Part shown: piece by piece, positions 2,727-52,605 of the stretch | Layout: every line of letters begins with the position of its first letter | How positions within the stretch are numbered: position 1 is the stretch's first letter | Assembly (NCBI GenBank): GCA_017504735.1 | Contig: JAFVQP010000070.1 | Span: 25,861-89,860 of the forward strand | Origin: Clostridia bacterium | GTDB taxonomy: Bacteria; Bacillota_A; Clostridia; Christensenellales; Borkfalkiaceae | Direction: 5' to 3' | Length of the DNA: 64,000 bases | Program-made: the position numbers and the translations under genes | The notes under the pieces: model-generated | Database searches by the model: none | Told to the model about the DNA's origin: nothing | Seen by the model: the letters and a program-made list of their open reading frames with translations, nothing else

Positions 2727-2790
2727 ATTATAACATATCGAAATATTGCATTTCTACTTATATTTTTTTCTATTCTCCTCATTTTTTCGG
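2727..2790 (-). promoter_or_regulatory. Promoter with 21-bp direct-repeat activator site (copy A)
   Basis: On the minus strand a TATAAT box (2732-2727) lies about 68 bases from the metallophosphoesterase start and has no good -35. Upstream are two half-sites on a 21-bp period: 2752-2761 (plus-strand TTCTACTTAT) and 2773-2782 (TTCTCCTCAT), followed by TTTTTTCGG to 2790. The same block recurs at 42737-42799 and 52543-52605. A 21-bp direct repeat running into the -35 region is typical of AraC-family class II activation; that an AraC protein binds here is inference. Confidence 0.7.
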
Positions 2791-2802
2791 GTAAAGGGGG
2801 AT

Positions 2803-4022
2803 TTATCGAAGAGGATTGATATGTTTCGGCAAACCATTTTCGTAGATAGGCGTCAACTCGCCTTGAATCAAAGGCAATGCATAACGGATATATTCTTTGG
2901 TTAAGCCCGTGCCTTCCTCGTTAATCCATTCGCAAGGGAACGCCTTTTCTTTGTTTGCAATTTCTTCAATCGGGGCAACCCCCGTTTCAAAACGGTAAGG
3001 TTCATCTCCAGCGCGGACAAGGGTTACCGCCACGCCGCTTTGCCCTGCCTTCGCCGCAACAACCGCCGCTTCGCCTGCGGCATACGCTTCGTTGATGTCC
3101 GTCAAGCTGGCGATATGCGCCGCACTGCGTTGTAAAGTGGAAAGCTCGATTGCACGCGTTTTGATCCCAAAATGCTTTGCGCACGCATTTGCCAAAAACA
3201 ACGCCGTACCCGTCAGCTGCTTATGCCCAAACACGTCCTCTTTCGCATCGGTTGCCGACAATTCGCAAACGTATCTGCCGTCAGGAAGTTTTACCCCTTC
3301 GGACACCGCAACAACAAGGGCTTTTTTCTTTTCCAAACAAGCGGAAATTTTCTCGTAGAAGTTTTCCATGGTAAAGAGTGTTTCCGGCAGGAAAATCAAG
3401 TCCGCCCCGTCGCAATCCGACCCTTTCGCCAAGGCGCACGCCGCTGTCAGCCAACCTGCGTTTCTCCCATAATTTCCACAATGGTTACCGCTTTCAAATC
3501 ATAAATAGCGCAATCGCAAACAATCTCTTTGATCGTTGTTGCGACAAATTTTGCCGCACTGCCGTAGCCAGGGGTATGGTCGGTGATTGCCAAATCATTG
3601 TCAATCGTTTTCGGTACGCCGACAAAACGGATTTTACTGCCGATTTTGTTGCCGTATGCGGACAATTTTTCCACCGTATCCATACTATCGTTTCCGCCTA
3701 TGTAGAAAAAGCAATCGATCTCGTACTTTTCTAACACCGCAAAAATTTTCTCGTACTCTTCGGTGCTAGCCTCGGCTTTTTTCAGTTTGTAACGGCAACT
3801 GCCAAGGTAACACGCAGGGGTACGCTTTAAAAGCTCTACCTGCCCTGCTTTCCCAAGCAAATCATTGAGTAAAACGAGGTTTTCATGCATCAAACCAAAG
3901 ATGCCGTTTCGCATACCGAACACTTTGTTTGCGCCTGCTTTTATCGCCCCCTCATATACCCCTGCAAGACTTGCATTGATCACCGAGGTCGGCCCGCCGG
4001 ACTGCCCGACAACTACATTCAT
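2803..4022 (-). pseudogene. pfp: Diphosphate-dependent phosphofructokinase, frameshifted
   Basis: Two frames together make one phosphofructokinase of about 405 residues. The N-terminal part (4022 down to 3447) has VGQSGGPTSVINAS, the GGNDS loop and PKTIDND; a Lys before TID is typical of the diphosphate-using group rather than ATP enzymes (PGTIDND). It ends prematurely just after VEIMG. The other frame continues with GWLTAACALAKGSD and runs to 2803. Inserting one base in GGGAGAAACG around 3461-3468 restores the family motif MGR(N/H)AGW, so one base is missing. Start ATG 4022 has GGAGG seven bases upstream. Expected reaction: reversible phosphorylation of fructose 6-phosphate by PPi in central glycolysis. 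Both halves are otherwise undecayed, so either a sequencing or assembly error or a very recent mutation is likely. Confidence 0.85.
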
Positions 4023-4057
4023 ATTCCATCCTCCGCGAAAATATTTTCTTCCCTTTT

Positions 4058-4086
4058 ATTGTATCATATACACCCGCATTTTGCAA
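4058..4086 (-). promoter_or_regulatory. Sigma-A type promoter of the phosphofructokinase gene
   Basis: The minus strand reads TTGCAA (4086-4081), 17 bases, TACAAT (4063-4058), placing the transcript start about 30 bases before the ATG at 4022. Confidence 0.65.
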
Positions 4087-4159
4087 GCGTATAACCAAAT
4101 TTTCCTTAAGGAAACCTTGTCTTTTATCGCACAAACTTTCCTATGTATCCTTTGTAAAA

Positions 4160-4190
4160 GTAAAGGCAGGACAAATCGCCCTACCTTTCG
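4160..4190 (-). terminator. Terminator of the OB-fold lipoprotein gene
   Basis: A nine-base stem (4162-4170 with 4180-4188, one mismatch) lies just after the stop at 4203, followed on the minus strand by ACTTTTAC. The U-tract is short. Confidence 0.5.
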
Positions 4191-18569: not shown

Positions 18570-18587
18570 AACGGAAACACTCCTGTC

Positions 18588-36949: not shown

Positions 36950-37903
36950 TTATATTTTTTTCATTTCCGGGGCTTTCTCTATGTCTTTTGGTTTCTTCTT
37001 AAGGTGTATGTTGCTAACCACAACCGCTGTTGCTATACACAAGAACGCACACGCATAATGCCATTGGAAAATGTTTTCACTTAAGATAATTGCACCGATA
37101 ATTACTGCAAACAACGGTTCGGAAAGTTTGATGATGAACAACTTTGACAACTCGCAAAGTTTAATGATTGTGTACCAAATCATATAACTTGCACAGGTCG
37201 CAAACATCATATAGCCGAACAAGGCAAAATCGCCAAATTCCACCATTTTCATTCTACCACCAAACGCCCAACCGATGATGAAAAATACGAGGCCGCCGAT
37301 AAACTGCGAATAGCCCGTCATCACAATCGAATCGGTATTTTTTAACAGTTTTTTACATATCACGCTAGCGGTTACCGTACAAAAGGAAGATGCGATGATG
37401 ATACCTTCGCCAAACCCTAAGGAAAAACCTAGCTGGTTAATGTTCAAAATCAAGATACTGCCAAGCCCTAACGCCGCGCCGATACACTTTCCAACGGTCA
37501 GCTTATCGTCCTTAAAAATCAAGGCGGTTACGACGATGAATATCAGTACGCCCGATTGCTTTAAGAGGGCTGTTTTCGAACTCTCTGCCAACGACAGTCC
37601 ATAAAAGGCGCATCCGTAATTGAGTATCACCGCAAACAAGGCAACGAGGGCAATTCCGCCCCATTCCTTTTTACTTTTCACGGTAGGGATTGCTTTGTTT
37701 TTCACGCCGAGGAAGAGCAGAATTGCCAAACCACTGCTGACAAACCGCACCCCTGCGAAAAACAATAGGTTGGGATAATACTTCGTATCGATTTCGAACT
37801 TCTCATACCCCAGCTTTACGGTGGGATACAGCGATCCCCACAGCATCATCACGACAACCGCCAACAAAAGGGGGAGAAGGTTTTTTAACGACTTTTCTTT
37901 CAT
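36950..37903 (-). CDS. DMT-superfamily transporter (EamA domains)
   Basis: A 317-residue membrane protein with ten predicted helices in two EamA repeats: residues 10-150 (MMLWGSLYPTVKLGYEKF at the start) and 165-300 (YTIIKLCELSKLFIIKLSEPLFAVIIGAIILSE is the typical second-repeat end). It overlaps the preceding oxidoreductase gene by four bases (ATGA). Family members export or import small metabolites. Here it is the only transporter of the operon and may move its substrate or product. Confidence 0.88.
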   Translation of the reverse strand: MKEKSLKNLLPLLLAVVVMMLWGSLYPTVKLGYEKFEIDTKYYPNLLFFAGVRFVSSGLAILLFLGVKNKAIPTVKSKKEWGGIALVALFAVILNYGCAFYGLSLAESSKTALLKQSGVLIFIVVTALIFKDDKLTVGKCIGAALGLGSILILNINQLGFSLGFGEGIIIASSFCTVTASVICKKLLKNTDSIVMTGYSQFIGGLVFFIIGWAFGGRMKMVEFGDFALFGYMMFATCASYMIWYTIIKLCELSKLFIIKLSEPLFAVIIGAIILSENIFQWHYACAFLCIATAVVVSNIHLKKKPKDIEKAPEMKKI

Positions 37904-38883
37904 TTTACCTTCAACACGACTTTCCCTGTGTTTTCAAATCTCTCTAAAATGCCGTGGGCTTCTTCAGCCTGCTCTATCGGCAAAACTTTGTATATACTCG
38001 GTTTAATTGCACCGCTTTCCATATGGGGGAACAATTCCGCCACCAACGATTTTAAGATAAACGCTTTTTCCTCATTCGTTCTATTGCGAAGCATACTGCC
38101 TACAAGGTGCAAGCCTTTCGTAAGTAAGGGGCGAAGCTTGATGTTCGTTTCCACCCCTGCCAAGGTAGAAATTACCACCCAGTAGCCGCCGCGTGCCATA
38201 TACGGCATCGCTTTGCCAAGGTCTTCACCACTCAAACAATCCATACACACGTTGACGGGTTTGCCTTCTTTTTCCAACTTTTCAAATGCCTCAGGGATAC
38301 TCTCTTTCTCTTGAATAATGATGTAATCCGCACCGAGGTCTTTTATCTTTTTCGCTTGCTCGCAGGTTTGTACGCTGGTTACCACGTATGCGCCGACCGC
38401 CTTCCCCATCGGGATTGCCGCGCTGGCAAGACCGCTTCCGCCTGCCGCCATATAAAAAGTTTGCCCCTTCTTCAAATGTCCTTCCAAGAAAAGATTGAGG
38501 TAGCTGGTTGCATACGCTTCGGGGATTGCCGAGGCTTCTTCAAACGACCAGCCTTTCGGGATGGGCATCAACAATTCGTACGGGACAGCGATGCGTTCTG
38601 CATAACCGCCGCCGCCAACCAACGCACATACCTTGTCACCTACCTGGAAAGAGGAGTTTGCCTTTGCGCCCTCGCCCATATCCGTAATGACACCTGCAAG
38701 TTCCAACCCCATCCATTCGGGCCAGCCTTTAGGAGAAGGATAGGTGCCGTTTTTTTGTAAAATGTCCGCGCGGTTTAACGCCACCGCATGGATTTCTACA
38801 AGAACGTCGTTTTCACCCATCGTAGGTTCGGCTACGTCCGTCCAAAGCAGTTGTTTATTTTCACCAACAAGCATTGCTTTCAT
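37900..38883 (-). CDS. Zinc-independent MDR-family oxidoreductase (quinone oxidoreductase-like)
   Basis: A 327-residue NADPH-dependent medium-chain dehydrogenase. The GroES-like N-terminus has VALNRADILQKNGTYPSPKGWPEWMGLELAG. The nucleotide site is YMAAGGSGLASAAIPMGKAVGA near 145 (AAxGGxG pattern). The catalytic zinc ligands of alcohol dehydrogenases are absent, which places it with QOR/zeta-crystallin and PIG3-like proteins. It probably reduces an unsaturated ketone or quinone-like intermediate. It follows the SDR gene by 13 bases in the operon. Confidence 0.88.
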   Translation of the reverse strand: MKAMLVGENKQLLWTDVAEPTMGENDVLVEIHAVALNRADILQKNGTYPSPKGWPEWMGLELAGVITDMGEGAKANSSFQVGDKVCALVGGGGYAERIAVPYELLMPIPKGWSFEEASAIPEAYATSYLNLFLEGHLKKGQTFYMAAGGSGLASAAIPMGKAVGAYVVTSVQTCEQAKKIKDLGADYIIIQEKESIPEAFEKLEKEGKPVNVCMDCLSGEDLGKAMPYMARGGYWVVISTLAGVETNIKLRPLLTKGLHLVGSMLRNRTNEEKAFILKSLVAELFPHMESGAIKPSIYKVLPIEQAEEAHGILERFENTGKVVLKVK

Positions 38884-38896
38884 AATTTTTCACCTA

Positions 38897-39667
38897 TTAG
38901 TCTGTACCCTTCATGCCAAGCGAACGTCCGCCGTCCACGATGTAGGTTTGACCTGTTACAAATCTCGCTTCGTCCGAAGCCAAGAACAATACGACGGGTG
39001 CGATGTCTTCCGCTACGCAAATTTCACCGAGGAAGTTGGTCGTTCTCGAACGCACTTCATCCTCTTCACCGGGACGCTGTACAACGCCGGGGGCAACTGC
39101 ATTTACCGTAATGCCGTATTCAGCAAGCTCCTTTGCGAACGATTTGGTGAAAGCCATAACGCCCGCTTTCGCCGCGCCGTAATCACAACAGCCTTTTAAA
39201 CCGTTTACGCCAACCGTGGAAGAGAAGGAAATAATTCTGCCGCCCTTCACGCCGTTTTCTACCATGTATCTGCCAACCGCACGGCCAACGTACATTGCGC
39301 CGTAGAGGTTTACCTTCAAAACTCTGTCGATAACGTAGTCCTTTTGATAAATCAACACAGAACCAGCCATCGGGGAAACGATTCTTGCGCTGCCACCTGC
39401 AACGTGTACGGAAATGTCGATCTTGCCGAAATCCTTAACCACTTCCGCAACCACGGCTTCTACACTTTCCGATTCGGTTACGTCCATCAAGTAGCCCTTT
39501 ACCTTCCCGCCAAGCGCCGCAATACGGGCAACCTTTGCGTTCAACGCTTCTTCGTTCATATCGCAAAGGGCAATCGATGCGCCCTCTTTTGCGAACTGGT
39601 ACGCCGCTTCGCCGCCTAAATAACCGCCGCCACCTGTGATCAACGCCACTTTATTCTCAAATCTCAT
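38897..39667 (-). CDS. Short-chain dehydrogenase/reductase (SDR)
   Basis: A 256-residue classical SDR. It has the TGGGGYLGGEAA cofactor loop (residues 10-20), a DMN acidic residue after beta-2 favouring NAD, the SFSS catalytic Ser near 147, and YGAAK (Tyr/Lys) near 160. The C-terminal GQTYIVDGGRSLGM is standard. I placed the start at 39667; an in-frame ATG at 39679 is also possible. It follows the Gfo/Idh/MocA gene by 19 bases. A polyol or hydroxy-acid dehydrogenase role in this operon is likely. Confidence 0.9.
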   Translation of the reverse strand: MRFENKVALITGGGGYLGGEAAYQFAKEGASIALCDMNEEALNAKVARIAALGGKVKGYLMDVTESESVEAVVAEVVKDFGKIDISVHVAGGSARIVSPMAGSVLIYQKDYVIDRVLKVNLYGAMYVGRAVGRYMVENGVKGGRIISFSSTVGVNGLKGCCDYGAAKAGVMAFTKSFAKELAEYGITVNAVAPGVVQRPGEEDEVRSRTTNFLGEICVAEDIAPVVLFLASDEARFVTGQTYIVDGGRSLGMKGTD

Positions 39668-39686
39668 TTTTCCATCCATCCTTGTT

Positions 39687-40679
39687 TTATTCGTGCTCAA
39701 AACAAATGCTGTCCATTATCTTTTTCAACAACAATTCGTGCTCGCGACTGAAAGGACTTTCCTTACCGTTTACAATACAATCGTAAAATTCCTGCACCAT
39801 ATCGTCGTATCTATTTTCAGGTGGGATATCTTGTATATCCAACACCGTCTTTCTATCCGCATACGGCGTATTTGCAATTTCCAAATCGGAGTAGGTCACC
39901 TTGATTTCGTTTTCAATTGGACGAATGTCAATGCTTCCCTTACTACCCGACACGAAGAATTGCCGCCTACCCCAACCGTTGACCTCTACCGAGGAAACGA
40001 ACACCCTTGCCAAGGCTTTTTCGTATTCCATCACGACCAAATTGTTGTCCGCAAAGTCAATACCGTCTAAGTTTGTATGTTTGAAAAATTTCGTTATCTT
40101 CTTCGGTTCACCCAATATGTACAAAATTAAATCCACCAGGTGACATCCGAGGATGTACATAATTCCACCCTCAAAGCTTGTCAACCAACGCTTGTATTCG
40201 GGGGTGTGGTAGGTACTCATCTCGGCGTTGATAGAGTAGATTTCCCCAAGCTTGCCGTCCTTGATAAGTTCCAAACCCTTCTTCACGCCGTAGTTGTTAC
40301 GGTACATATACCCAAGCTGCACGACGAGGTTTTTCTCTTCCGCGGTTTTAAGCACCGACTCAAATTCCTCATAAGTACCGCCCGCAGGCTTATCCATGTG
40401 GATATGTTTCCCTGCCACTACGCAACGTTTTGCATAGGCGGTGAGGTTGGGCACTTCACTTTCCACAAGCACCGCATCCGATTGATCGAGGAGCTCTTCT
40501 ACCAACAACCGCTTCAACCCTTGATAGGCAGGTTGGTTACCGCGAAGGGCAATCCACTCTTCCTTTTCTTCCGCATACCCCACAACCTCAAATAGCTGTG
40601 GAAATTTTCTTACTGCAGACATCAATGCCGACGCATGATTATGCCCGATACCGATTTGACCGATTTTGATTTTTCTCAT
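39687..40679 (-). CDS. Gfo/Idh/MocA-family oxidoreductase
   Basis: A 330-residue NAD(P)-dependent enzyme. The Rossmann motif is GQIGIGHNHASALM near residue 5; HMDKPAGG near 97 replaces the usual EKP and keeps the catalytic Lys. The C-terminal alpha/beta domain includes GGIMYILGCHLVDLILYILGEPK. The ATG at 40679 is chosen over upstream in-frame codons because it fits the family N-terminus. It acts on sugars, inositols or related cyclic polyols in known members. It is in the operon between the dehydroquinase-like gene (88 bases) and the SDR gene. Confidence 0.9.
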   Translation of the reverse strand: MRKIKIGQIGIGHNHASALMSAVRKFPQLFEVVGYAEEKEEWIALRGNQPAYQGLKRLLVEELLDQSDAVLVESEVPNLTAYAKRCVVAGKHIHMDKPAGGTYEEFESVLKTAEEKNLVVQLGYMYRNNYGVKKGLELIKDGKLGEIYSINAEMSTYHTPEYKRWLTSFEGGIMYILGCHLVDLILYILGEPKKITKFFKHTNLDGIDFADNNLVVMEYEKALARVFVSSVEVNGWGRRQFFVSGSKGSIDIRPIENEIKVTYSDLEIANTPYADRKTVLDIQDIPPENRYDDMVQEFYDCIVNGKESPFSREHELLLKKIMDSICFEHE

Positions 40680-40712
40680 AAAAGCCCGTCCGCTTATCCT
40701 ATGAACTTCTTT

Positions 40713-40749
40713 ATTTGCTGTGGAGTACAGCAAATAGCCCCATGGGGCT
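40713..40749. repeat. Tandem double hairpin, copy 2
   Basis: ATTTGCTGT (40713-40721) pairs with ACAGCAAAT (40727-40735), immediately followed by the palindrome AGCCCCATGGGGCT (40736-40749). It lies 18 bases beyond the dehydroquinase-like stop. Compare 35576-35613. Confidence 0.7.
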
Positions 40750-40767
40750 GCCTTTTTACAGCTTTTT

Positions 40768-41604
40768 TCAACCTTCGCTGTCTATCCAGCCGAATTGTTT
40801 AAAGAAGTTTACCGCTGTCACAATGTCCAGCTGTTCTTTGATGCGATTGCCGTCGTCCGCCTTGGTACAAAAGCACATATACGAACCAAGTACGGGGTTA
40901 ATCAGTCTTGTCGTCCTACCCATTTCCCCACAACAGTGGAAGGAAATTTTTTGTCTAAGGTTTAATTTCTTCAACCGACGCATCGTATCGTATGCCTCGA
41001 CAAGCTCGTCTTCCGTATTGCAACGGGTAACAATCTTGATGATGTCGGGGTTTCGTTCCGCCAAGAACGTTACCAAATCAATGATTTGATCTCCGTTCAT
41101 CGGAATATCAGGATGGGTGCTGAGAAGCACCTCTTTCCCCATGCCATGTACACGGTTGATAAATTCTTTTTGTTTTTCGATAACCTTTTTGTCCGTTACG
41201 ATTTCCAAGGGATTGTTTTTGGTAAACGAGTAAATATCATCCCCTTTAAATTTTCCTCTCGACTCAAGGTCGAAACTATACCCAAGCAAATCCACCGCAT
41301 CAAGACCCGCTTCTAGACCTTTGATCAGCAGTTCCGCACGGTCCTCTTCACTTTCGACGATTTCCGTCCAATCGTAACGTCTGCTGTAATTGAGGGCTAA
41401 CGTCGGTAAGGAGGTACCGTCCGCAATTTGCTTGATGGCGTCCACCGTTTTGTATTCGTCGTCTAAACAAGACAAATGCAAATCGATCGCTGTCGCGCCC
41501 TTTTCTTCAAAATATTGTATCTTTTCCAGCGCATCCTTTGGGGTTCCTTCCTTAACGACCCCTGCAAGCAAGGGTACGTTGGATGCAGAAAATCTTTTCC
41601 CCAT
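40768..41604 (-). CDS. Type I 3-dehydroquinase-like aldolase-fold enzyme
   Basis: A 278-residue (beta/alpha)8 protein resembling AroD. The Schiff-base Lys is visible in DIIKIVTRCNTEDEL near 190 and the catalytic His in LLSTHPDIP near 155; PLLAGVVKEGTPKDALEKIQYFEEKG is the usual first strand and helix. The substrate-binding ExR of true dehydroquinases is replaced by DLHLS (residues 46-50), and the protein is longer than AroD (about 250), so the substrate may differ. ATG 41604 has GAGG upstream. It starts four bases after the amidohydrolase stop. Co-location with an amidohydrolase and dehydrogenases points to catabolism, not aromatic biosynthesis. Confidence 0.75.
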   Translation of the reverse strand: MGKRFSASNVPLLAGVVKEGTPKDALEKIQYFEEKGATAIDLHLSCLDDEYKTVDAIKQIADGTSLPTLALNYSRRYDWTEIVESEEDRAELLIKGLEAGLDAVDLLGYSFDLESRGKFKGDDIYSFTKNNPLEIVTDKKVIEKQKEFINRVHGMGKEVLLSTHPDIPMNGDQIIDLVTFLAERNPDIIKIVTRCNTEDELVEAYDTMRRLKKLNLRQKISFHCCGEMGRTTRLINPVLGSYMCFCTKADDGNRIKEQLDIVTAVNFFKQFGWIDSEG

Positions 41605-41608
41605 GATT

Positions 41609-42673
41609 TTAACCTCTAAAAACAACCTCACCATTTGCAACCGTCAGCTTGCATTTGTAACCTTTCTCCCAAGCCACACGGTTTCCGCTGAAATCCGTTA
41701 AATCGTATTTATCTTCTTCGTAGGCGATTACCGCGATATCCGCCGTCCGCCCTTCTTTTAAGCATCCCCATTCCTCCGCTTTTCCAAGCACTTTTGCAGG
41801 GGTGGAAGTTACACTCTTAAAAATACTTTCTTCGTCCTGACCGCAAACCTTCGCGATATTCATACAAGCGGTCAAACCATACCGTCCGCCTCGCTTAAAT
41901 GCGCTCCACAAAGTCAAATCGGTGGAAAGGGTATCTGGCGCACAGCCTTGCTTTACCGCTTCTCGATACACCCCGAAATCGGTATGGATATGTCCTGCAA
42001 AGCCTGCGTCTAACACTACGCCTTTTTCCTTTGCATAGCGAAGGCAGTCAAATCCATCCTCGCCTGCATTGTTTTGTCCGCCGTGATAGGGATGGGTCAA
42101 CACGTCCCCTTTTCGCAAAGCCTTGACAATTTCCATCATCGGCACGGGGGAATGGTTGCAATGCACCATCACCTTCAAACCATACTTCTCCGCACATTCC
42201 ACCGCCTCACGGACGGGTGTGATATCGCGCGCGTCGGTGTCCTTTGCGTCGAAACAAATTTTCACCCCGATTACTTTTTCTTCCCACCCCTTCAAAAGAG
42301 GTTCTACCCTGTCAGTGTGCAAGTGATTATCCGAAATCCAAGTCCCAATAAAGCCGAGGGTCTTTACCATACTCGCCGAAGCTTCTTGTACGGTGTCTTG
42401 TTCTATCCAAGCGTCCACCGCCGAAGTTACGCCGAAGGGGAAACAAGCCCAGTCGCCAACCCCCAAGCCGTCCGAAGATATCTTGCGCATATGCAGGTGA
42501 GAATCTATCAAACCCGACGAAACGATCTGTCCGTTTGCATCGTAGGTAAACTCGGCATCCACATGTATGTCTTGGGCGATTTTTGCAACCCGCCCGCACT
42601 CTATGTAAACATCCGAAAAATAGAACTTTTCGCCGTCCCAAATTTTACCGTTTTTAATCAAGAGTTTGGACAC
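41609..42673 (-). CDS. Amidohydrolase-superfamily enzyme (dihydroorotase/deacetylase-like)
   Basis: A 354-residue metal-dependent hydrolase. The small N-terminal beta domain (KLLIKNGKIWDGEKFYFSDVYIECGRV) leads to the metal motif DSHLHMRK near 68. Further ligands are VMVHCNHSP near 177, THPYHG, AGHIHTDFG near 225, and STDLT near 250, the usual final Asp. The C-terminal EGRTADIAVIAY closes the composite beta domain. I favour the GTG at 42673 (GGTGGGG just upstream); the frame extends 11 codons further to an ATG. First gene of the operon, under the AraC-type site at 42737-42799. It probably deacylates or opens a ring in the substrate. Confidence 0.85.
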   Translation of the reverse strand: MSKLLIKNGKIWDGEKFYFSDVYIECGRVAKIAQDIHVDAEFTYDANGQIVSSGLIDSHLHMRKISSDGLGVGDWACFPFGVTSAVDAWIEQDTVQEASASMVKTLGFIGTWISDNHLHTDRVEPLLKGWEEKVIGVKICFDAKDTDARDITPVREAVECAEKYGLKVMVHCNHSPVPMMEIVKALRKGDVLTHPYHGGQNNAGEDGFDCLRYAKEKGVVLDAGFAGHIHTDFGVYREAVKQGCAPDTLSTDLTLWSAFKRGGRYGLTACMNIAKVCGQDEESIFKSVTSTPAKVLGKAEEWGCLKEGRTADIAVIAYEEDKYDLTDFSGNRVAWEKGYKCKLTVANGEVVFRG

Positions 42674-42736
42674 TTTTCCCCACCTTCCCCCTGCCTTAAA
42701 AGGCATTTAGGGTGCACTATCCCCTATGCTAACTCC

Positions 42737-42799
42737 ATTATATCACATTATATATAGCATTTCTACTCATTATTTTTTCAATTCTCCTCATTTTTTCGG
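42737..42799 (-). promoter_or_regulatory. Promoter with 21-bp direct-repeat activator site (copy B)
   Basis: TATAAT (42742-42737) for the amidohydrolase operon, with half-sites TTCTACTCAT (42761-42770) and TTCTCCTCAT (42782-42791) and a TTTTTTCGG end at 42799. The proximal half-site occupies the -35 position, and no consensus -35 exists. The AraC promoter starts 10 bases further on in the other direction, so the same site could also set autoregulation. Confidence 0.75.
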
Positions 42800-42808
42800 A
42801 TAAATCAC

Positions 42809-42837
42809 TTGACAATTTTATTTTTTTATCATAAAAT
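42809..42837 (+). promoter_or_regulatory. Sigma-A promoter of the AraC gene
   Basis: TTGACA (42809-42814), 17 bases, TAAAAT (42832-42837), upstream of the ATG at 42861. Confidence 0.7.
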
Positions 42838-43921: not shown

Positions 43922-43956
43922 ATACTCAACGTGCTATATGCAAACGGGAGGTGTTT

Positions 43957-44721
43957 ATGAACGAAATTTTATCCCAACTGATCATCAAAAACGTACTGTC
44001 CTTCAATACAATGTTCGCCCATGAAAAGAGCAATCAATTTATAAAAAAGGATCGTGCGTGTTGGGGATTGTTTATCAACTACGAAGGCGAGGTTATCTTC
44101 AAAAACCACAGCGGCACCTACGTTGCAAACAGCAAGCATTTGCTCATTTTGCCCAAAGGAGCATCTTACGAGTGGAGCTGTTCGCGGTCGGGACATTACC
44201 TGCTTATCGACTTTGACAGCGATTTAGCAGTAAACGAGTTATTCTCTTTAACCATCAACGGAATTGAACCCTTGGAAAACAGTTTAAACGCCCTAGAACG
44301 GGTACACCTCTCCTCAAAAAACTTCTCGAACCTCGAAAGTATTTACCTTGTCTATTCCTTGATTTTAAACGCGTTAAAATTAGATCAAGAGCACAACAAT
44401 TACACCCCCAGCGTCAAGAAAAACCGCTTACGCCCTGCGATGGATTACCTTTTAAGCCATTTTACCTCATCCATTAAAAACAAGGAGCTGGCTGATTTAT
44501 GCGGTATTTCCGAGGTGTATTTTAGAAAACTTTTTTTAGAGGTGTACGGCATTTCCCCGATAACGTATATCCAAAATTTACGCATTAGCCGCGCCAAAGA
44601 AATGCTAAAGAGTGATTACAACAGCATCGCCGATATCGCTTTTTCGTTGGGATATAATAACATATACGAATTTTCCAAAGCCTTTAAAAAACATACGGGC
44701 GTACCCCCGTCAAAGTATTAA
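43957..44721 (+). CDS. AraC-family transcriptional regulator (second)
   Basis: A 254-residue regulator with an N-terminal cupin-like domain (KDRACWGLFINYEGEVIFKNHSGTYVANSKHLLILPKGASYEWS) and a C-terminal AraC HTH pair at residues 155-254 (IKNKELADLCGISEVYFRKLFLEVYGISPITYIQNLRISRAKEML...NSIADIAFSLGYNNIYEFSKAFKKHTG). The start is ATG 43957 (GGGAGG six bases upstream) rather than the GTG two codons earlier. It has its own promoter and terminator and is convergent with the tyrosine-phosphatase cluster. Its target is not evident; it may sense a glycan product. Confidence 0.92.
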   Translation: MNEILSQLIIKNVLSFNTMFAHEKSNQFIKKDRACWGLFINYEGEVIFKNHSGTYVANSKHLLILPKGASYEWSCSRSGHYLLIDFDSDLAVNELFSLTINGIEPLENSLNALERVHLSSKNFSNLESIYLVYSLILNALKLDQEHNNYTPSVKKNRLRPAMDYLLSHFTSSIKNKELADLCGISEVYFRKLFLEVYGISPITYIQNLRISRAKEMLKSDYNSIADIAFSLGYNNIYEFSKAFKKHTGVPPSKY

Positions 44722-44762: not shown

Positions 44763-44790
44763 CTCAATGCATACCTGGCTGGCTCATTTT
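44763..44790. repeat. Dispersed intergenic repeat, copy 4
   Basis: CTCAATGCATACCTG followed by GCTGGCTCATTTT, spanning the stop of the cytoplasmic phosphatase gene. Confidence 0.65.
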
Positions 44791-45821
44791 ATCAATATAT
44801 CCCCAAAAAAGATCCCTTTAATCGTTTCGATTTCTTCCTGTGTAACCCCGATAGAATGAAGATAACTAACCGTCTTTTCCTGCAGGGTATCCCCCTCATA
44901 TTCTGACGTTAATCTATCGTAAAACCAGTGAAACCACTCGCTTGATTCCCCCGTTTTCGTATTACGCTCGCCATAAATGGAAAAACTGGAAAATTCGTAA
45001 TCCTTGATACAAGCCAGTTCCGATTCACCCAAAAGCGCACGCAACAAAAAGGTCACCGTGTCCGTCCGATCCGAACCTGCCGTACAATGATAATACAGCG
45101 GATAATTGTTTTTATCCGCAAACAACGCAAACACTTTTCTAAATCGTTCAGGCTCCTTCATCGCCGCATCGTAGCCGTTGATGGTTGCATAAATCAGCTT
45201 CACCCCAGGGATAAAGCCTTCTTCCCCCACCCCCGATTCTTCCGTACTGCGCAAATCAATCTCCGTCTTAATCCCAAGCACGTCACGCATATACGCCATA
45301 CCCTTTTCGGTAAGCGTTGTGTCAAGAGGATCGCGGGGCAAAGGGGTCACCGAACCGCCTCGATAGGCAATGCCCTGCACGATTTTTTTACCGTCCATCG
45401 TTTCATAACCGCCAAAATCGCGCACGTTGCAAATACCGTCAAAATCCATCACGCGAGGTCCAAGCGACGTGGTTTGGAACTCGCCCAAAGCACACTCCAA
45501 CACCCTGCCAGCTTTATCAAATGCAGTGATGCGCATAAAATAATTGCTTGCCTTGTACAAATTGTACAAATCCGCAACACGCGCGTCCCCTGCAATTTTC
45601 AGCGAAATTTTATCGGAAAAATCACACTCCCTTGCATATTCCACAAGGAAATTTTCCGCAGGTTCTCCCTCGTATTGCCACCCCACCTGTATGGGCACAA
45701 AGGCATTTCTTACCTCGACAAAATAATCGGCAACATTCGCTTCTGCACCTGCTTGCAAATATTTTTTTGCGTTTTCGATATAGGGGAATACTTCCCCTTT
45801 CGGAGAGAGAATTTTCAACAT
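44784..45821 (-). CDS. Tyrosine-phosphatase-like protein without export signal
   Basis: A 345-residue paralogue of the three lipoprotein phosphatases upstream. It begins directly at GEVFPYIENAKKYLQAGAEAN, which in the paralogues comes after the signal and stalk, so it should stay in the cytoplasm. Residues 25-120 are fibronectin-III-like; residues 125-340 are the Y_phosphatase3-type domain with NVRDFGGY near 140 and the signature HCTAGSDRT near 245 (Cys and Arg kept). Its Ser and Asp around the loop (GSDRTDT) differ from GADRTGT in the others. Its ATG lies three bases after the stop of the next gene. It was probably created by loss of the 5' part of a duplicated copy. Confidence 0.8.
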   Translation of the reverse strand: MLKILSPKGEVFPYIENAKKYLQAGAEANVADYFVEVRNAFVPIQVGWQYEGEPAENFLVEYARECDFSDKISLKIAGDARVADLYNLYKASNYFMRITAFDKAGRVLECALGEFQTTSLGPRVMDFDGICNVRDFGGYETMDGKKIVQGIAYRGGSVTPLPRDPLDTTLTEKGMAYMRDVLGIKTEIDLRSTEESGVGEEGFIPGVKLIYATINGYDAAMKEPERFRKVFALFADKNNYPLYYHCTAGSDRTDTVTFLLRALLGESELACIKDYEFSSFSIYGERNTKTGESSEWFHWFYDRLTSEYEGDTLQEKTVSYLHSIGVTQEEIETIKGIFFGDILIK

Positions 45822-45824
45822 ACT

Positions 45825-47255
45825 TTAATCTTCTTTCTTTTGTACAGCCCACGCCGCAAGCAAGTCGGAATACTGCTCGTTCAACGCTTTCTTTTCCGCC
45901 TTACGCACCGAAACCGTCGGTGTATAGGTGTAACCCTCCACCTCTACTTCGCCGTAGAAAATCGCCTTAATTTTATCCATTTGCGACTGCGTAACGCCGA
46001 TTGAACGCATCCACGTTTCCGCCTTTTCCTGCTTGGTATTGCCCGCATAAGCGTTCAATTTTTCCATAAAGGCATCCCAAGATTCCTTGTACCCGCCCGA
46101 CTTGGTATCACGCAAGCCGTAGCTGGAAAAACTGGTCAACTCATACCCCTGCAAACATTCCAACTCAGAAACGCCAAGGAAGGTATGCAAAAGATAGATT
46201 ACCGTACCCGTTCTGTCCGCGCCGCCTGTACAATGGATGTAGAAGGGATAATTATTCACGTCGGAAAGCATCGTAAAGAATTGCAACATTTCCTCGTCGT
46301 ACCAATCCTTAAAGATGTCGCCATAACCGTTGATTGTGATGTAGGTAAGGGATGCCCCAGGGATCACACTGCCTTGTTCCAGCGTGATGCCTGCTTCCTG
46401 CGCCGTACGGAAGTCAATTTCCGTCTTAATCCCCATCACCTCGCTCATATAAGCTTTTCCCTCGTCGGAAATTTGGTGCATTTGCCCGTTGTTGGGCGGA
46501 ATGGTCAAGCAACCGCCGCGGTATGCAATGCCTTGTGCAAGCGTTTTACCGTCCGTGGTGGTATAACCGCCAAGGTCGCGTACGTTGCGCACGTCGTCCA
46601 CCTTCATAAAGCGAGGACCAAGGTCGGTCGTGTAAAATTCACCTTCCTGCTTTTCTACCAACTCACCCTTTCTATTAAACGCGGAAATACGCACGTAATA
46701 GGTGGTTGCTTTATAAAGATTATATACCTCAATTGAACGGTCTCTAGCACCTGCTTCCACCGCAATCGCATCAGAATAGTCCGCTTTTGTCGCATATTCT
46801 ACAAGGAATTTCCCTGCACCCGTCGCCGTCCATTTCCACTCGATTTTTACAGGTGCCCATTGACTGCTTACGTTTTGGTAGTAATCCCCGACAACCGCAC
46901 CTGCGCCTGCCTGCAAATACCCCTTGATGCTGTCAAGGTAAGGAAAAACTTCCCCGCTCGTTATCACCGATAAATTTTGCGTCTCAGGCTTTTCCTCAGG
47001 GGTTTCCGAGTTTTCAGGGGTAGAGCTTTCAGGTTCTTCCGAGGTTTCAGGGGTAGAACTTTCAGGTTCTTCCGATACGTCGGACGTGGAAGATACTTCT
47101 TCTTTTTCTGAAGATGCAGGGCTTTCCACCTGTACCGAGCTTTCGCTTGCAGAAGAACCGCCAAGGATACCTTCTAGTGCAGAGCAACCCGATGCGCCAA
47201 CGGTCAAGGCGCCCAACAATGCACAAAGCGCTGTTAAAATAGAACGCTTTTTCAT
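45825..47255 (-). CDS. Tyrosine-phosphatase-like lipoprotein, single domain
   Basis: A 476-residue lipoprotein; ASGC gives the modified Cys near residue 24. Residues 30-95 are a Ser/Glu/Pro stalk; 105-215 an Fn3-like domain (IEWKWTATGAGKFLVEYATKADYSD); 220-450 the phosphatase domain. Its hallmarks are NVRDLGGY near 235, IAYRGG, IDFRTAQEAG, and HCTGGADRTGT near 343 (C-x5-R). Family knowledge: such secreted phosphatases (LipA-like) hydrolyse phosphotyrosine or phosphoinositides. The natural substrate here is unknown. It lies 12 bases after the double-domain gene. Confidence 0.88.
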   Translation of the reverse strand: MKKRSILTALCALLGALTVGASGCSALEGILGGSSASESSVQVESPASSEKEEVSSTSDVSEEPESSTPETSEEPESSTPENSETPEEKPETQNLSVITSGEVFPYLDSIKGYLQAGAGAVVGDYYQNVSSQWAPVKIEWKWTATGAGKFLVEYATKADYSDAIAVEAGARDRSIEVYNLYKATTYYVRISAFNRKGELVEKQEGEFYTTDLGPRFMKVDDVRNVRDLGGYTTTDGKTLAQGIAYRGGCLTIPPNNGQMHQISDEGKAYMSEVMGIKTEIDFRTAQEAGITLEQGSVIPGASLTYITINGYGDIFKDWYDEEMLQFFTMLSDVNNYPFYIHCTGGADRTGTVIYLLHTFLGVSELECLQGYELTSFSSYGLRDTKSGGYKESWDAFMEKLNAYAGNTKQEKAETWMRSIGVTQSQMDKIKAIFYGEVEVEGYTYTPTVSVRKAEKKALNEQYSDLLAAWAVQKKED

Positions 47256-47267
47256 AATAAATCCCTC

Positions 47268-50200
47268 TTATCTATTTATCCAAGCCGTTTCATTGTAAAC
47301 GGTCAGCGAAGTTACCGCATCCGTACGAATCCAGAACCCCATTTTTGCATTTTCAGAAGAAATTTCATTTGCAACACGTTTTGCGAAAACGTAGGTATAA
47401 TCGTAAGAAGTACTTCCTTCAACGGAAAGGGTCAAAACCGCCGTATCCCCTACGATTTCCACCGACATGTACAAGGTTGCGCCATTGTTCAACAGTGTAG
47501 ACGACAAGCCCATACCTGTATCACGTGCCACTTCCTTCATCGTACCATTGGCATCCAGGGTATAAGGACGAAGCTCGCCGCCGCGGCATTCGAACCCATA
47601 GCTACCGATCAACATACGGAAACCGCCCTGTGTTTTTTCCACCGTCGTGCTTGTTGCGCGGATAATCGCCATTTTGCCATATCCCACAACACCGCTACCC
47701 GTAAGCAACACTTTGTTTTCCGTCAATACTACCTTGCCGTCGCTATCAAAAGTAAGTACGTTATCCATACGTACAATGTCCATGGACTTCCAATTGATTT
47801 CAAACGCAACCTCTGTTCCGTCCGTGAATACTACTTTACACTCTGCTTTGCTGTTGGGCAAAGCAGGCAACTGTGCCTCCGTAACGGTAAGGATGCCGTT
47901 CACGTAGGCGAAAGGCGTTTCTACACCGCCAAGGTATAACTTAGCAGGCACTTTACTGCCCACAATGGAAATCACCAAATCCCCATCCAAGCCTTTGCGG
48001 AAGGTTTGAGGCGCATGGATATCCACCTTCGTTTCTTCCCCGAAGAAAATCGCCTTAATGTTGTAAATTTCCGTTTCCGTTACACCGATGGAAAGCAGGT
48101 AATTTTCCGTCTTTTCTTGTAAATTTGCACCATCATACGCCTTCAACATCGCAATCATATCGTTGAACTCTTCCCAGTACTGATACCCTTTCGCCGCGCG
48201 AGGGCCATACACGGAGAAGGTGGTAAAGGCAAAATCTTGGATACATTCTTCCTCGCTTACACCAAGGAATGCCTGCAACAAGAAGGTTACCGTACCCGTT
48301 CTATCCGCACCGCCCGTGCAGTGGTAGTACAAGGGATAGTTCTTTTCATCAGAAAGATAGGAGAAAAGCTTGCGGTAGCTTTCCTTTCCGTGATAAAAAG
48401 GAGCCGTATAACCGCCAAGAGATATGTAGGTAAGGTTCACGCCAGGGACAACGCTTTCATAGCCAATCCCCGATTCGCTCGTGTTACGGAAATCAAGCTC
48501 TCCCTTGATCCCCATCACTTCGCTCATGTATTTTTTACCCGCTTCGGTAATATTGCTGTCGTAATTAAACCCAACCGCAGGGGTCAACGCACCGCCACGG
48601 TACGCAATACCCTGCTGAACCGTTTTACCAAGCGAGCTTTCATGCCCGCCGATATCACGCACGTTGTAGATACCTTCCACGTTCATAACACGAGGACCAA
48701 GATCGGTTGTATAGAAGTCACCGCAATCCGTTTCAACCACGTTCCCCCATGCATCCAACACCGATACGCGCACGTAATAGGTGGTTGCTTTGTAAAGGTT
48801 GTACAAATCCACCGAACGCTTCGTTGCATCCGTTTCCACAACAAGCGCATCGGAATAATCCGCCTTCGTTGCGTATTCCACACGGAATTTGCTCGCATCC
48901 GATGCGGTGTAGTCCCATTTTACCTGAATAGGCACCTGAGGATTTTTTGCTTTGTTGTAGTAATCCGCAGGGTTTGCCGATGCGCCTGCCAACAGGTAAT
49001 TTTTCGCATTTTCAATATAGGGATAAACCTCACCCGTAGGTGCGGTAACCGTCAACGCATTCGGGATCTCTTCCTCTATCGTTTCTTCCCCGAAGAAAAT
49101 CGCCTTAATGTTGTAGATTTCCGTTTCCGTCACACCGATGGAAAGCAAGTAATTTTCCGTCTTTTCTTGTAAATTTGCACCATCATACTTCTTCAACAGC
49201 GCAATCATATCGTTGAATTCTTCCCAATACTGATACCCTTCCGCTGCGCGAGGGCCATACACGGAGAAGGTGGTAAAGGCAAAATCTTGGATACATTCTT
49301 CCTCGCTTACGCCAAGGAATGCCTGCAACAAGAAGGTTACCGTACCCGTTCTATCCGCACCGCCCGTGCAGTGGTAATACAAGGGATAATTCTCTTCGTT
49401 TGAAAGATAGGAGAAAAGCTGGCGATAGCTTTCCTTCCCATGATAGAAAGGAGCTGTATAACCGCCAAGAGGTATGTAGGTAAGGGTTACGCCAGGGACA
49501 ACGCTTTCATAGCCAATCCCCGATTCGCTCGTTTTACGGAAATCAAGTTCTCCCTTGATCCCCATCACTTCGCTCATGTATTTTTTACCCGTTTCGGTAA
49601 TATTGCTGTCGTAATTAAACCCAACCGCAGGGGTCAACGCACCGCCACGGTACGCAATACCCTGTTGAACCGTTTTACCAAGCGAGCTTTCATGCCCACC
49701 GATGTCACGCACGTTGTAGATACCTTCCACGTTCATAACACGAGGGCCAAGATCCGTCGTCTTAAATTGTGTTTCCGCACGTCCAAGCACGTCTCCGTTT
49801 GAAGCCACCGCCTTAATACGAACATAGTAGGTGGTATCCTTGTAAAGGTTATACAAATCAAAAGAACGCTTGGTAATCCCCACGTCTTCGATGATGGCGT
49901 CGGAATAGTCCGCCTTCGTTGCATATTCTACAAAAAGCTTTCTTGCCCCTCTACCGCTCATCTGCCATTTCAACTCGATAGGCACCTGAGGGTTCTTTGC
50001 TTGGTTGTAGTAATCCGCAGGGTTTGCCGATGCGCCTGCCAACAGATATTCTTTCGCGTTTTCAATATACGGGAACACCTCTTCTCCGTATGCAGGCGCG
50101 GATATCGTAATCGTGATCGAGGATTGCTCATCAGGGTCTTCCGAAGTCTCAGGCGTGGAAGAGCTTTCAGGGTCTTCCGACACGTCAGGCGTGGAAGAAC

Positions 50201-50396
50201 TTTCAGGGGCTTCCGACACGTCAGGCGTGGAAGAGGTTTCTTCCTTTTCCGAAGACGTAGGGTTTTCCACCTGTACCGAGCTTTCGCTTGCAGACGAACC
50301 GCCAAGCAATCCGCCGAGCGCAGAACAACCCGACGCACCAATGGTCAAGGCGCCCAACAACGCACAAATCATCGTTAAAATAGAACGTTTTTTCAT
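47268..50396 (-). CDS. Lipoprotein with two tandem tyrosine-phosphatase domains and lectin-like tail
   Basis: A 1042-residue lipoprotein (Cys near 24). After a stalk of near-identical STPDVSEDPES units come two Fn3-plus-phosphatase modules, with HCTGGADRTGT near residues 347 and 694; both keep Cys, Arg and NVRDIGG. The modules are almost identical at the DNA level over long stretches, showing recent duplication or gene conversion. Residues 800-880 are an Ig-like spacer and 885-1042 a jelly-roll domain (VVGYGKMAIIRATSTTVEKTQGGFRMLIGSYGFE) shared with the gene at 50530. I start at ATG 50396 (AGGGGA upstream, MKKRSIL as in the paralogues); an in-frame ATG six codons earlier overlaps the stop of the fossil copy. 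Confidence 0.88.
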   Translation of the reverse strand: MKKRSILTMICALLGALTIGASGCSALGGLLGGSSASESSVQVENPTSSEKEETSSTPDVSEAPESSSTPDVSEDPESSSTPETSEDPDEQSSITITISAPAYGEEVFPYIENAKEYLLAGASANPADYYNQAKNPQVPIELKWQMSGRGARKLFVEYATKADYSDAIIEDVGITKRSFDLYNLYKDTTYYVRIKAVASNGDVLGRAETQFKTTDLGPRVMNVEGIYNVRDIGGHESSLGKTVQQGIAYRGGALTPAVGFNYDSNITETGKKYMSEVMGIKGELDFRKTSESGIGYESVVPGVTLTYIPLGGYTAPFYHGKESYRQLFSYLSNEENYPLYYHCTGGADRTGTVTFLLQAFLGVSEEECIQDFAFTTFSVYGPRAAEGYQYWEEFNDMIALLKKYDGANLQEKTENYLLSIGVTETEIYNIKAIFFGEETIEEEIPNALTVTAPTGEVYPYIENAKNYLLAGASANPADYYNKAKNPQVPIQVKWDYTASDASKFRVEYATKADYSDALVVETDATKRSVDLYNLYKATTYYVRVSVLDAWGNVVETDCGDFYTTDLGPRVMNVEGIYNVRDIGGHESSLGKTVQQGIAYRGGALTPAVGFNYDSNITEAGKKYMSEVMGIKGELDFRNTSESGIGYESVVPGVNLTYISLGGYTAPFYHGKESYRKLFSYLSDEKNYPLYYHCTGGADRTGTVTFLLQAFLGVSEEECIQDFAFTTFSVYGPRAAKGYQYWEEFNDMIAMLKAYDGANLQEKTENYLLSIGVTETEIYNIKAIFFGEETKVDIHAPQTFRKGLDGDLVISIVGSKVPAKLYLGGVETPFAYVNGILTVTEAQLPALPNSKAECKVVFTDGTEVAFEINWKSMDIVRMDNVLTFDSDGKVVLTENKVLLTGSGVVGYGKMAIIRATSTTVEKTQGGFRMLIGSYGFECRGGELRPYTLDANGTMKEVARDTGMGLSSTLLNNGATLYMSVEIVGDTAVLTLSVEGSTSYDYTYVFAKRVANEISSENAKMGFWIRTDAVTSLTVYNETAWINR
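50128..50226 (-). repeat. 36-bp tandem repeat in the stalk, about 2.7 units
   Basis: Units encode SSTPDVSEDPES-type peptides. The same unit is present three times in the neighbour gene at 52202-52309. Near-identity suggests that slippage changes stalk length. Confidence 0.7.
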
Positions 50397-50410
50397 AAAT
50401 ATTCCCCTTT

Positions 50411-50515
50411 TCATTTTTTCGGTGATAACACTTCACCGAAGAAAGTTGCCTTAAAATCGTAATCACCGATATATCCGTCCTGTTCCGACCTCAAATATCG
50501 TCGGTGAGAGAATTT
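50411..50515 (-). pseudogene. Fossil 3' end of another tyrosine-phosphatase gene
   Basis: In one minus-strand frame this gap reads YLRSEQDGYIGDYDFKATFFGE, which aligns without gaps to the C-terminal YLLSIGVTETEIYNIKAIFFGE of the intact paralogues (11 of 22 identical, including KAxFFGE). The frame ends TGA at 50413-50411, overlapping an ATG of the next gene. Nothing upstream of about 50515 aligns. It is the remnant of a deleted sixth domain copy. Confidence 0.6.
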
Positions 50516-50529
50516 TTAGCGTTGTTCAA

Positions 50530-52476
50530 TTAGTTTTCTTGCTTTTGTGCGTCCCACGCAGCAGAATTATAAATGGTTACAGAATCCACTTCATCCAAAC
50601 GCATGTAGATGGCAAGTTTTGCATTTTCGTGGGCGATTTCATTTCCGATACGTTCAAAGTTATAGGTAAATTCTACCGTTTGCGAACCTTCAACACGTAC
50701 AGTCAACGCCGCCGTAGCTTCATCAACCATTTCCACCGACATATACAACGTACCGACCTGTTCAAAGGGATAACTAGACACCTTAAAGCCAGTATCTCTC
50801 GATACTTCCGCAACTGTACCATTGCTGTCAATCGTATATACGCGCATGATATTGCCGCGGAATTCCAAGCCGTAACTGCCAAGGAACATTCTCAAACCGC
50901 CGTTCCCCGTCGCACCTTTTTCCATCGACATATGAATAATCGCCTTATTACCGTACCCTACTGCGCCGTTGCTATAAATGAACGTGCTTACTTCCGCCAA
51001 AGTAGCCGTGCCCGCTGCGTCAAAAGTAAACATTTCATCCATCGTTACGTCTACCCCGGTAGGTACTTCGGGAAGGTCAGGCGTTTCAGGCTGATTAGGA
51101 TCTTCAATCGTTTCTTCCCCGAAGAAGATTGCCTTAATGTTGTAAATTTCCGTTTCCGTTACACCGATGGAAAGCAAGTAATTTTCCGCTTTTTGCTGAA
51201 GGTTTTCCCCAGGGTACGCTTGCAAAAGTTCCTTCATTTCCTTATAACGGGCACCGTTATGAGGGTCGCTTTCGCCACGCAAACCATAGATGGAAAAGCT
51301 AGTAAATTCGTAACCTTGCGCACATTCTAACTCACTCACGCCAAGGAATGCTTGTAAAATATACACTACCGAGCCCGTTCTATCCGCGCCTGCAGTACAA
51401 TGCATATACAAGGGATAATTGTCTTTGTTTGAGAAGTAGGAAAAGATTCTACGGTAAACTTCCTTTTGACCCGAACCTACATTCCCCTTAAAGGGATCTT
51501 GATAACCGCCTGCTGTAATGTAGGTAAGCTTCGCACCGGGGACTAAGCTGCCGTCTTTGAGCTTAATACCCGATTCGTTTTCATCACGGAAATCAAGCTC
51601 ACCCTTGATACCAAGCACTTCGCTCATATATTTCTTGCCGTCTTCCGTAAGTTCAAGCCAGTTGCCGTTGGCAAGTTTCGAGTTGTTGTCCTTCAACGCA
51701 CCGCCGCGGAAAGCAACCCCCTGTTGAATCGTTTTACCAAGCGAGCTTTCGTAGCCGCCGATATCACGTACGTTGCAAATACCGTCGATGTTCATAACAC
51801 GAGGACCAAGGTCGGTCGTGTAAAATTCACCTTCCTGCTTTTCTACCAACTCGCCCTTTCTGTTGAACGCTGAAATACGCACGTAATAGGTGGTTGCCTT
51901 ATAAAGGTTATATACCTCAATCGAACGGTCTCTAGCGCCCGCTTCCACCGTAACCGCGTCAGAATAATCCGCTTCCGTCCCATATTCTACCAGGAATTTC
52001 CCTGCACCCGTCGCCGTCCATTTCCACGCGATTTCTATAGGTGCCTGGGGGTTATCCATCTTTTCGTAGTAGTCGGCAACGTCTGCGCCAGCCCCTGCTT
52101 GCAAATATGCCTTCGCAGTGTCCACGTAAGGGAATACTTCCCCTTCCGTCAATATCGCCAATGCGCTTTCCGTAGGCACCTCAGGCTCTTCCGAGTCTTC
52201 AGGGGTAGAGCTTTCGGGGTCTTCCGATACATCAGGCGTGGAAGAACTTTCAGGGTCTTCCGATACGTCAGGCGTGGAAGAACTTTCAGGGTCTTCCGAC
52301 ACGTCAGGCGTGGAAGAGGTTTCTTCCTTTTCCGAAGACGTAGGGTTTTCCACCTGTACCGAGCTTTCGCTTGCAGACGAACCGCCAAGCAATCCGCCGA
52401 GCGCAGAACAACCCGACGCAATGGTCAAGGTGCCCAACAATGCACAAATCGCTGTTAAAATAGAACGTTTTTTCAT
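50530..52476 (-). CDS. Tyrosine-phosphatase-like lipoprotein with lectin-like tail
   Basis: A 648-residue lipoprotein (signal ending ASGC, Cys near 23). A stalk with three SSTPDVSEDPES units precedes an Fn3-like domain (110-210) and the phosphatase domain (215-460): NVRDIGGY, VAFRGG, LDFRDENESG, HCTAGADRTGS near 362. Residues 490-645 are the jelly-roll domain also found in the gene at 47268. First gene of the cluster, with its own AraC-type promoter region at 52543-52605 and a leader of about 60 bases. The tail probably binds a glycan or keeps the enzyme near its substrate. Confidence 0.88.
   Translation of the reverse strand: MKKRSILTAICALLGTLTIASGCSALGGLLGGSSASESSVQVENPTSSEKEETSSTPDVSEDPESSSTPDVSEDPESSSTPDVSEDPESSTPEDSEEPEVPTESALAILTEGEVFPYVDTAKAYLQAGAGADVADYYEKMDNPQAPIEIAWKWTATGAGKFLVEYGTEADYSDAVTVEAGARDRSIEVYNLYKATTYYVRISAFNRKGELVEKQEGEFYTTDLGPRVMNIDGICNVRDIGGYESSLGKTIQQGVAFRGGALKDNNSKLANGNWLELTEDGKKYMSEVLGIKGELDFRDENESGIKLKDGSLVPGAKLTYITAGGYQDPFKGNVGSGQKEVYRRIFSYFSNKDNYPLYMHCTAGADRTGSVVYILQAFLGVSELECAQGYEFTSFSIYGLRGESDPHNGARYKEMKELLQAYPGENLQQKAENYLLSIGVTETEIYNIKAIFFGEETIEDPNQPETPDLPEVPTGVDVTMDEMFTFDAAGTATLAEVSTFIYSNGAVGYGNKAIIHMSMEKGATGNGGLRMFLGSYGLEFRGNIMRVYTIDSNGTVAEVSRDTGFKVSSYPFEQVGTLYMSVEMVDEATAALTVRVEGSQTVEFTYNFERIGNEIAHENAKLAIYMRLDEVDSVTIYNSAAWDAQKQEN
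52202..52309 (-). repeat. 36-bp tandem repeat in the stalk, three units
   Basis: Three near-identical 36-base units encode the acidic Ser/Pro stalk. See also 50128-50226. Confidence 0.75.
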
Positions 52477-52542
52477 AAATATTCCCCTTCAAATTTTTCT
52501 AAATCCGTATTACTACGTAATACAACCCTTCAAGGTACTTTT

Positions 52543-52605
52543 ATTATATCACATAATACGTGCCATTTCTACTCATTATTTTTTTTATTCTCCTCATTTT
52601 TTCGG
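52543..52605 (-). promoter_or_regulatory. Promoter with 21-bp direct-repeat activator site (copy C)
   Basis: TATAAT (52548-52543), half-sites TTCTACTCAT (52567-52576) and TTCTCCTCAT (52588-52597), TTTTTTCGG to 52605. Distances to the -10 box are identical to copy B, and the leader to the ATG at 52476 is about 60 bases as in copies A and B. Confidence 0.75.

Follow-up and report, generated by a model that had tools for sequence, protein, structure and literature searches.

The stretch of DNA analyzed here (the window; 64,000 nt, positions 25,861 to 89,860 of contig JAFVQP010000070.1) comes from a Clostridia bacterium of the Borkfalkiaceae, an uncultured gut bacterium. It contains three nearly identical, widely separated copies of a promoter element (copies A, B and C), all on the minus strand and directed toward genes starting near 2659-2671, 42673-42706 and 52476, respectively. 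The gene of an AraC-family regulator, designated AraC1, is adjacent to copy B. The three copies had been proposed, in an earlier sequence-only reading, to define a candidate AraC regulon. Our analysis supports this proposal, in that the element is conserved in front of homologous targets and linked to the AraC1 ortholog. The features of the locus are listed in Table 1.

Table 1 Position and strand of the promoter elements, regulator genes and putative target genes in the window.
Feature	Position	Strand	Remarks
Copy A, metallophosphoesterase operator-promoter	2727..2794	-	distal half-site 2773-2782, proximal half-site 2752-2761, TRTGN 2733-2737, TATAAT 2727-2732
Copy B, operator-promoter of long unit B	42737..42803	-	distal half-site 42782-42791, proximal half-site 42761-42770, TRTGN 42743-42747, TATAAT 42737-42742
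Copy C, operator-promoter of phosphatase row	52543..52609	-	distal half-site 52588-52597, proximal half-site 52567-52576, TRTGN 52549-52553, TATAAT 52543-52548
AraC1, AraC-family regulator, 280 aa	42861..43703	+	proposed activator; cupin-type AraC_binding domain, two helix-turn-helix motifs
araC own promoter, TTGACA-17-TAAAAT	42809..42837	+	9 bp from reversed distal half-site of copy B
AraC2, second AraC-type gene	43951..44721	+	directly behind araC1
Metallophosphoesterase, target A	866..2671	-	PF00149; signal-like N-terminus by eye; true start probably ATG 2659
Amidohydrolase, first gene of unit B	41609..42706	-	start probably GTG 42673
Unit B, inner part	35626..41640	-	DHquinase_I-like, Gfo/Idh/MocA, SDR, PIG3-like oxidoreductase, EamA transporter, trehalase-like hydrolase
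Giant 2145-aa protein	29081..35518	-	GH42-like C-terminal fold (predicted); signal-like N-terminus by eye; conserved unit B target in relatives
Giant 2335-aa protein, 480-aa and 560-aa proteins, two ATP-binding cassette (ABC) permeases	16645..28816	-	no Pfam match for the 480-aa and 560-aa proteins
PTP1-PTP4, four Y_phosphatase3 proteins	44784..52476	-	five HCx5R motifs; signal-like N-termini by eye in PTP1-PTP3, not in PTP4

The pattern TTCTNCTNAT-N11-TTCTNCTNAT was found with zero mismatches at 2752-2782, 42761-42791 and 52567-52597 and nowhere else in the window, in agreement with the three near-identical distant elements noticed earlier. When up to three mismatches were allowed, the window yielded five matches, compared with 0.61 on average in 100 dinucleotide shuffles, all of which stayed below five. 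With a sequence-only profile of 67 positions, copies A-C, all three of which belong to its training set, scored 51.8-60.6 bits, the next place in the window reaching 8.1. The shuffle comparison and this gap in score within the window ruled out a chance repeat.

In the reading direction, the element consists of CCGAAAAAATGAGGAGAAT, an A-rich link, a second half-site and a TATAAT box lying 16-17 bp beyond AGAAAT. The second half-site is ATGAGTAGAAATG in copies B and C and ATAAGTAGAAATG in copy A. Spacing and promoter hexamers were counted in 11 collected copies, from the window and from relatives, and the half-sites formed a direct repeat with a 21-bp period in each of them, as had been described for the window. 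The earlier statement that no -35 is present proved too strong: a weak hexamer, TAGAAA (four of six positions identical to TTGACA), lies within the proximal half-site of all three window copies, 17 bp from TATAAT in copies B and C and 18 bp in copy A. Over the 11 copies, this hexamer matched at four of six positions in ten and at five in one, always 17-18 bp from the -10. A poor -35 thus sits under the proximal half-site, as in an AraC-type class II direct-repeat operator-promoter. The sequence-only reading had also overlooked an extended -10, TRTGN-TATAAT, which is present in the three window copies and in all 11 collected ones. On both strands of the window, TRTGN precedes only 5 of 48 TATAAT words, and copies A-C must be among these five. 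TRTG at the extended -10 position is known from many Gram-positive promoters (PMC10773906). An alternative sigma factor was ruled out, since the -10 is the consensus TATAAT with TRTG. As for the leaders, said to span about 57-60 bases, copy B does not fit this length from ATG 42706 and does so only from GTG 42673 (by eye).

We then looked for the element in relatives, using two sets of genomes: all 398 genomes of the family of genome G001 (family set) and a sample of 396 genomes drawn from the order (order set), which includes G001 and at least one further member of its family. A first pattern, made of both half-sites and TATAAT and derived from the window and from the first G001 and G006 copies, matched 7 of the 398 family genomes with up to three mismatches, whereas the backward control pattern matched none. 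Pattern matches with three mismatches in G102 and G256 were set aside as chance, the profile having no match at either place. The profile was built from nine copies (three from the window, two from G001 and one each from G002, G003, G006 and G122). At an E value of 0.01, it gave 68 matches in 59 family genomes. The top eight, in seven genomes, scored 36.4-58.6 bits and were counted as real; two of them, in G266 (49.3 bits) and G004 (36.4 bits), were outside the training set. The other 60 (16.4-23.5 bits) were considered as background and their genes were not inspected. In the order set, no profile match was found at an E value of 1e-5 outside G001.

All eight strong matches in the 398 genomes precede homologs of the window targets: the GH42-like giant in five cases, proteins of the tyrosine-phosphatase type in two and the metallophosphoesterase in one. 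The element was thus not found upstream of many unrelated genes, and these matches together with the order draw ruled out a repeat scattered in front of such genes. In G266, the element precedes a metallophosphoesterase that shares 81% identity with the unit A protein. A second phosphoesterase copy (locus L141, 10163-10483), cut by the contig end, follows directly behind the first; the profile gave no strong match in front of this second copy. The first G001 copy precedes three phosphatase genes, the first 31% identical to PTP1 and the others 60% to PTP1 and 71% to PTP4, and the G122 copy a Y_phosphatase3 protein with 31% identity to PTP3. The element is followed by homologs of the 2145-aa giant in G006 (39%), G003 (42%) and G002 (33%, truncated by the contig end). 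The second G001 copy precedes a fragment at a contig end that shares 57% identity with the first 54 residues of this giant. The target in G004 is also a contig-end fragment, 33% identical to the 2145-aa and 31% to the 2335-aa giant; by eye, the fragment starts almost like the G003 protein. For G002 and G004, it is less certain which of the two giants is the true counterpart. Pairwise alignments of copy A with G266 and of copies B and C with G001 indicated that the element and the -10 are kept while the flanks drift; copy A and its G266 counterpart do not differ at any of the 35 bases that span the proximal half-site to TATAAT. In the G002, G003 and G004 copies, which belong to a more distant AraC group, the proximal half-site has TTGAA where the others have TAGAA or TGGAA.

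The distribution of the element was compared with that of AraC1. A search of a species-genome collection with a 28-row AraC1 alignment gave 58 loci, of which the six close ones (L001-L006, in genomes G001-G006; 54-71% identity) were used, the other 52 being at 24-39%. The six genomes are titled Clostridia or Clostridiales, and five of the titles name as host reindeer, sheep, goat or roe deer. At an E value of 1e-40, an AraC1 ortholog was found in 6 of the 398 family genomes, namely G001-G006 alone. The element was present in five of these six genomes and in 2 of the 392 without ortholog (Fisher p 1.5e-9, a value that is overstated, as the genomes are related). Close relatives that keep the AraC gene and lose the element would have spoken against the regulon. 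In the sixth genome, G005, the giant gene reaches the contig end, so that the target promoter lies off that contig; this genome holds one background profile match (18.7 bits).

AraC1 has the domains of an AraC/XylS transcription regulator. Its C-terminal domain matches PF12833 (5.1e-22) and, in two stretches corresponding to the two helix-turn-helix motifs, PF00165; in the PDB, it has sequence matches to the DNA-binding domains of AraC, Rob, SoxS and MarA. The N-terminal domain, of the cupin-type AraC_binding kind that serves ligand binding and dimerization in this family, is recognized by PF02311 (2.4e-6; 27.7 bits, cut-off 21.1). The protein collection contained 85 relatives of AraC1 at an E value of 0.001.

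The distal half-site of copy B adjoins the promoter of araC itself. In all seven loci (window and L001-L006), a single reversed half-site resembling CC[AG]AAAAAATGAG lies on the opposite strand to araC, and 7-9 bp separate its end from the araC -35. The latter is TTGACA in five loci and TTGACT in two and is followed by a near-consensus -10. This araC promoter is well kept between G001 and the window. For the araC side, we used a half-site matrix whose training set lacked the two araC-side copies (window and G001), and took the highest-scoring site in the 150 bp preceding araC. This site ranked first or second in its whole locus in five of the seven loci, 6th in L004 and 11th in L003. Since copy B has its distal half-site next to the araC -35 and in reverse orientation, we propose that AraC1 probably regulates its own gene. 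A CCAATTT..GATAAAA stretch is found beyond copy C (window about 52610-52650, minus strand) and beyond the G001 phosphatase copy (L001 about 6330-6370, minus strand). Its resemblance, by eye, to the araC -10 region suggests that the phosphatase promoter may have arisen by duplication of the araC intergenic stretch.

The presumed targets include two kinds of phosphatases. All four PTPs score above the cut-off of PF13350 and carry the HCx5R motif. PTP2 (47268-50414, minus strand) comprises two phosphatase domains with two HCx5R motifs, its second half being 52% identical to PTP4; it looks like a fusion of paralogs. In the metallophosphoesterase (866-2671), the Cys-rich residues 52-102 match residues 849-901 of the IgA protease chain 9qa6_A (E value 1.3e-4). 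Two adjacent open reading frames (ORFs; 2803-4022, minus strand) match positions 1-170 and 183-274 of the phosphofructokinase profile PF00365; judged from this split, the phosphofructokinase is a broken gene or a sequence error.

For unit B, the sequence-only reading had named an internal dehydroquinase-like operon as the target. This part turned out not to be the conserved target: a search of 11 relative stretches did not recover the amidohydrolase, DHquinase-like, SDR, EamA and trehalase-like genes, and it is the GH42-like giant further down that is conserved as the target of unit B. Inositol catabolism was also considered for unit B and not adopted, since the Gfo/Idh protein, at 70 bits, stays below the inositol 2-dehydrogenase cut-off of 355. 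The 2145-aa giant would be co-transcribed from the copy B promoter, and the genes at 16645..28816 would belong to the same transcript. Homologs of the block formed by the 2335-aa giant, the 480-aa and 560-aa proteins and the permeases surround araC in several relatives. A profile of the C-terminal part of the 2145-aa giant matched no PDB chain by sequence, and its fold was therefore predicted. The GH42-like fold was found with this predicted structure, among the fold-search matches listed. PF02449 gave no match in the 2145-aa protein of the window; among its homologs, the one in L005 scored 21.4 bits (cut-off 21) and those in L003 and L004 fell below the cut-off.

The 21-bp direct repeat, the weak -35 under the proximal half-site, the extended -10, the conservation of these features and the linkage to AraC1 can all be read from the DNA. 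They led us to conclude that the element is very probably the operator-promoter through which AraC1 controls a small conserved regulon, and that AraC1 would activate units A, B and C. Several observations weigh against this conclusion. The element is present in two genomes, G122 and G266, in which no AraC1 ortholog was detected. G266 shares with the window a syntenic stretch (58-91% identity) that extends from the 2145-aa giant over the importer to GHL6 and the phosphoesterase. The syntenic contig starts inside the giant, short of the araC position, and this contig break offers an explanation; no ortholog was found elsewhere in the assembly. There is no such explanation for G122. Moreover, the genomes compared are incomplete metagenome-assembled genomes, the completeness of which is not stated, and the araC-side half-site is weak in L001 (15.4), L003 (7.5) and L004 (11.2) compared with the window (29.1). 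Immediately downstream of the phosphatase copies in G001 and G122, the genes share only about 31% identity with the window PTPs. Finally, many phosphatase and phosphoesterase homologs in the same genomes have no strong element, which implies that only a part of these homologs belongs to the regulon.

We considered the possibility that AraC1 is a mere neighbor and that another regulator, AraC2 or a different DNA-binding protein, recognizes the element. The position of the AraC2 gene behind araC1 and the case of G122 would agree with this. Yet AraC2 shares only 26% identity with AraC1 over 97 residues and had no match in L001, L002, L004 and L006, while its matches in L003 and L005 (24%) are araC1 itself. 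L001, L003 and L006 have an element on the same stretch, and the element tracks the AraC1 ortholog in five of six genomes. These comparisons make AraC2 the less likely owner of the element, and we regard a regulator other than AraC1 as unlikely. It is still less probable that AraC1 binds and represses, or that the element is a phosphate-responsive operator that merely looks AraC-like. A site over the -35 position is also compatible with repression, the consensus, extended -10 makes basal activity possible, and phosphatase targets would suit a phosphate regulator. Against this, the consistently poor -35 is what is expected where an activator is needed, and no match to a response regulator or histidine kinase family was obtained among the 36 window ORFs scanned. 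Least probable of all, to the point of being hardly credible, is that the copies arose by recent duplication of a single intergenic stretch and are devoid of regulatory role. The araC -10-like stretch beyond copy C and the G001 phosphatase copy (seen by eye) suggests spread by duplication, but in relatives it is the half-sites and the -10 that are kept while their surroundings diverge, and all eight strong matches stay in front of genes.

The proposed AraC1 operator resembles several known systems. Its 21-bp spacing is that of AraC at araBAD. The XylS sites at Pm are described as two 15-bp repeats with 6 bp between them, i.e. a 21-bp period (PMC5481539). As at Pm, an AraC-family protein, direct repeats with a 21-bp period and an activator site meeting the -35 region are found here. 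Unlike at Pm and araBAD, the half-site sequence is another one, the -10 is extended by the Gram-positive TRTG, and there are several unlinked target units. MarA-type sites are reported to lie forward over the -35 at class II promoters and reversed upstream of it at class I promoters (PMC12052159). The half-sites described here, forward at the targets and reversed at araC, recall this split, though 'forward' in the MarA sense cannot be read from sequence. MarA is described as binding single sites as a monomer (PMC8811837), in contrast to the two half-sites and the protein with an extra cupin-type domain found here. In Caldicellulosiruptor, local AraC-family carbohydrate regulons have been predicted, with motifs obtained by footprinting, among them direct repeats (PMC8579813). 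The regulator gene beside an ABC importer and glycan enzymes is a shared trait; the proteins and genes differ, and secreted phosphatases are not among the targets in the portions of that source drawn upon here.

In the mechanism that we propose, a ligand-bound AraC1 dimer would sit on the direct repeat, the ligand probably being a sugar freed by the secreted enzymes. The dimer would contact RNA polymerase at the -35 position and activate the class II extended -10 promoters. This would switch on the secreted metallophosphoesterase (unit A), the long unit leading to the giant GH42-like protein and the ABC importer (unit B) and the row of tyrosine-phosphatase-type proteins (unit C). Such a regulon would most likely serve the extracellular breakdown and the uptake of glycans. 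A more specific idea, that it is a system dedicated to phosphorylated glycans or inositol phosphates, is tentative and in our opinion rather doubtful. In that case, AraC1 would co-activate secreted phosphatases of the cysteine type and of the metal type that strip phosphate, the GH42-like giant would cut the freed chain and the importer would take up the products.

AraC-family regulators beside glycan loci are already known in Firmicutes; what stands out is the unusual target set, two kinds of phosphatases and a GH42-like giant. We know of no described Gram-positive gut regulon of such make-up, and a full-text literature search for such a combination found no paper. The AraC1 regulon as proposed here would assign a specific, testable regulator-operator pair to an uncultured gut lineage and join three functions that annotation alone would not connect. 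If the substrate turned out to be phosphorylated, it would show how gut Clostridia coordinate dephosphorylation with glycan cutting.

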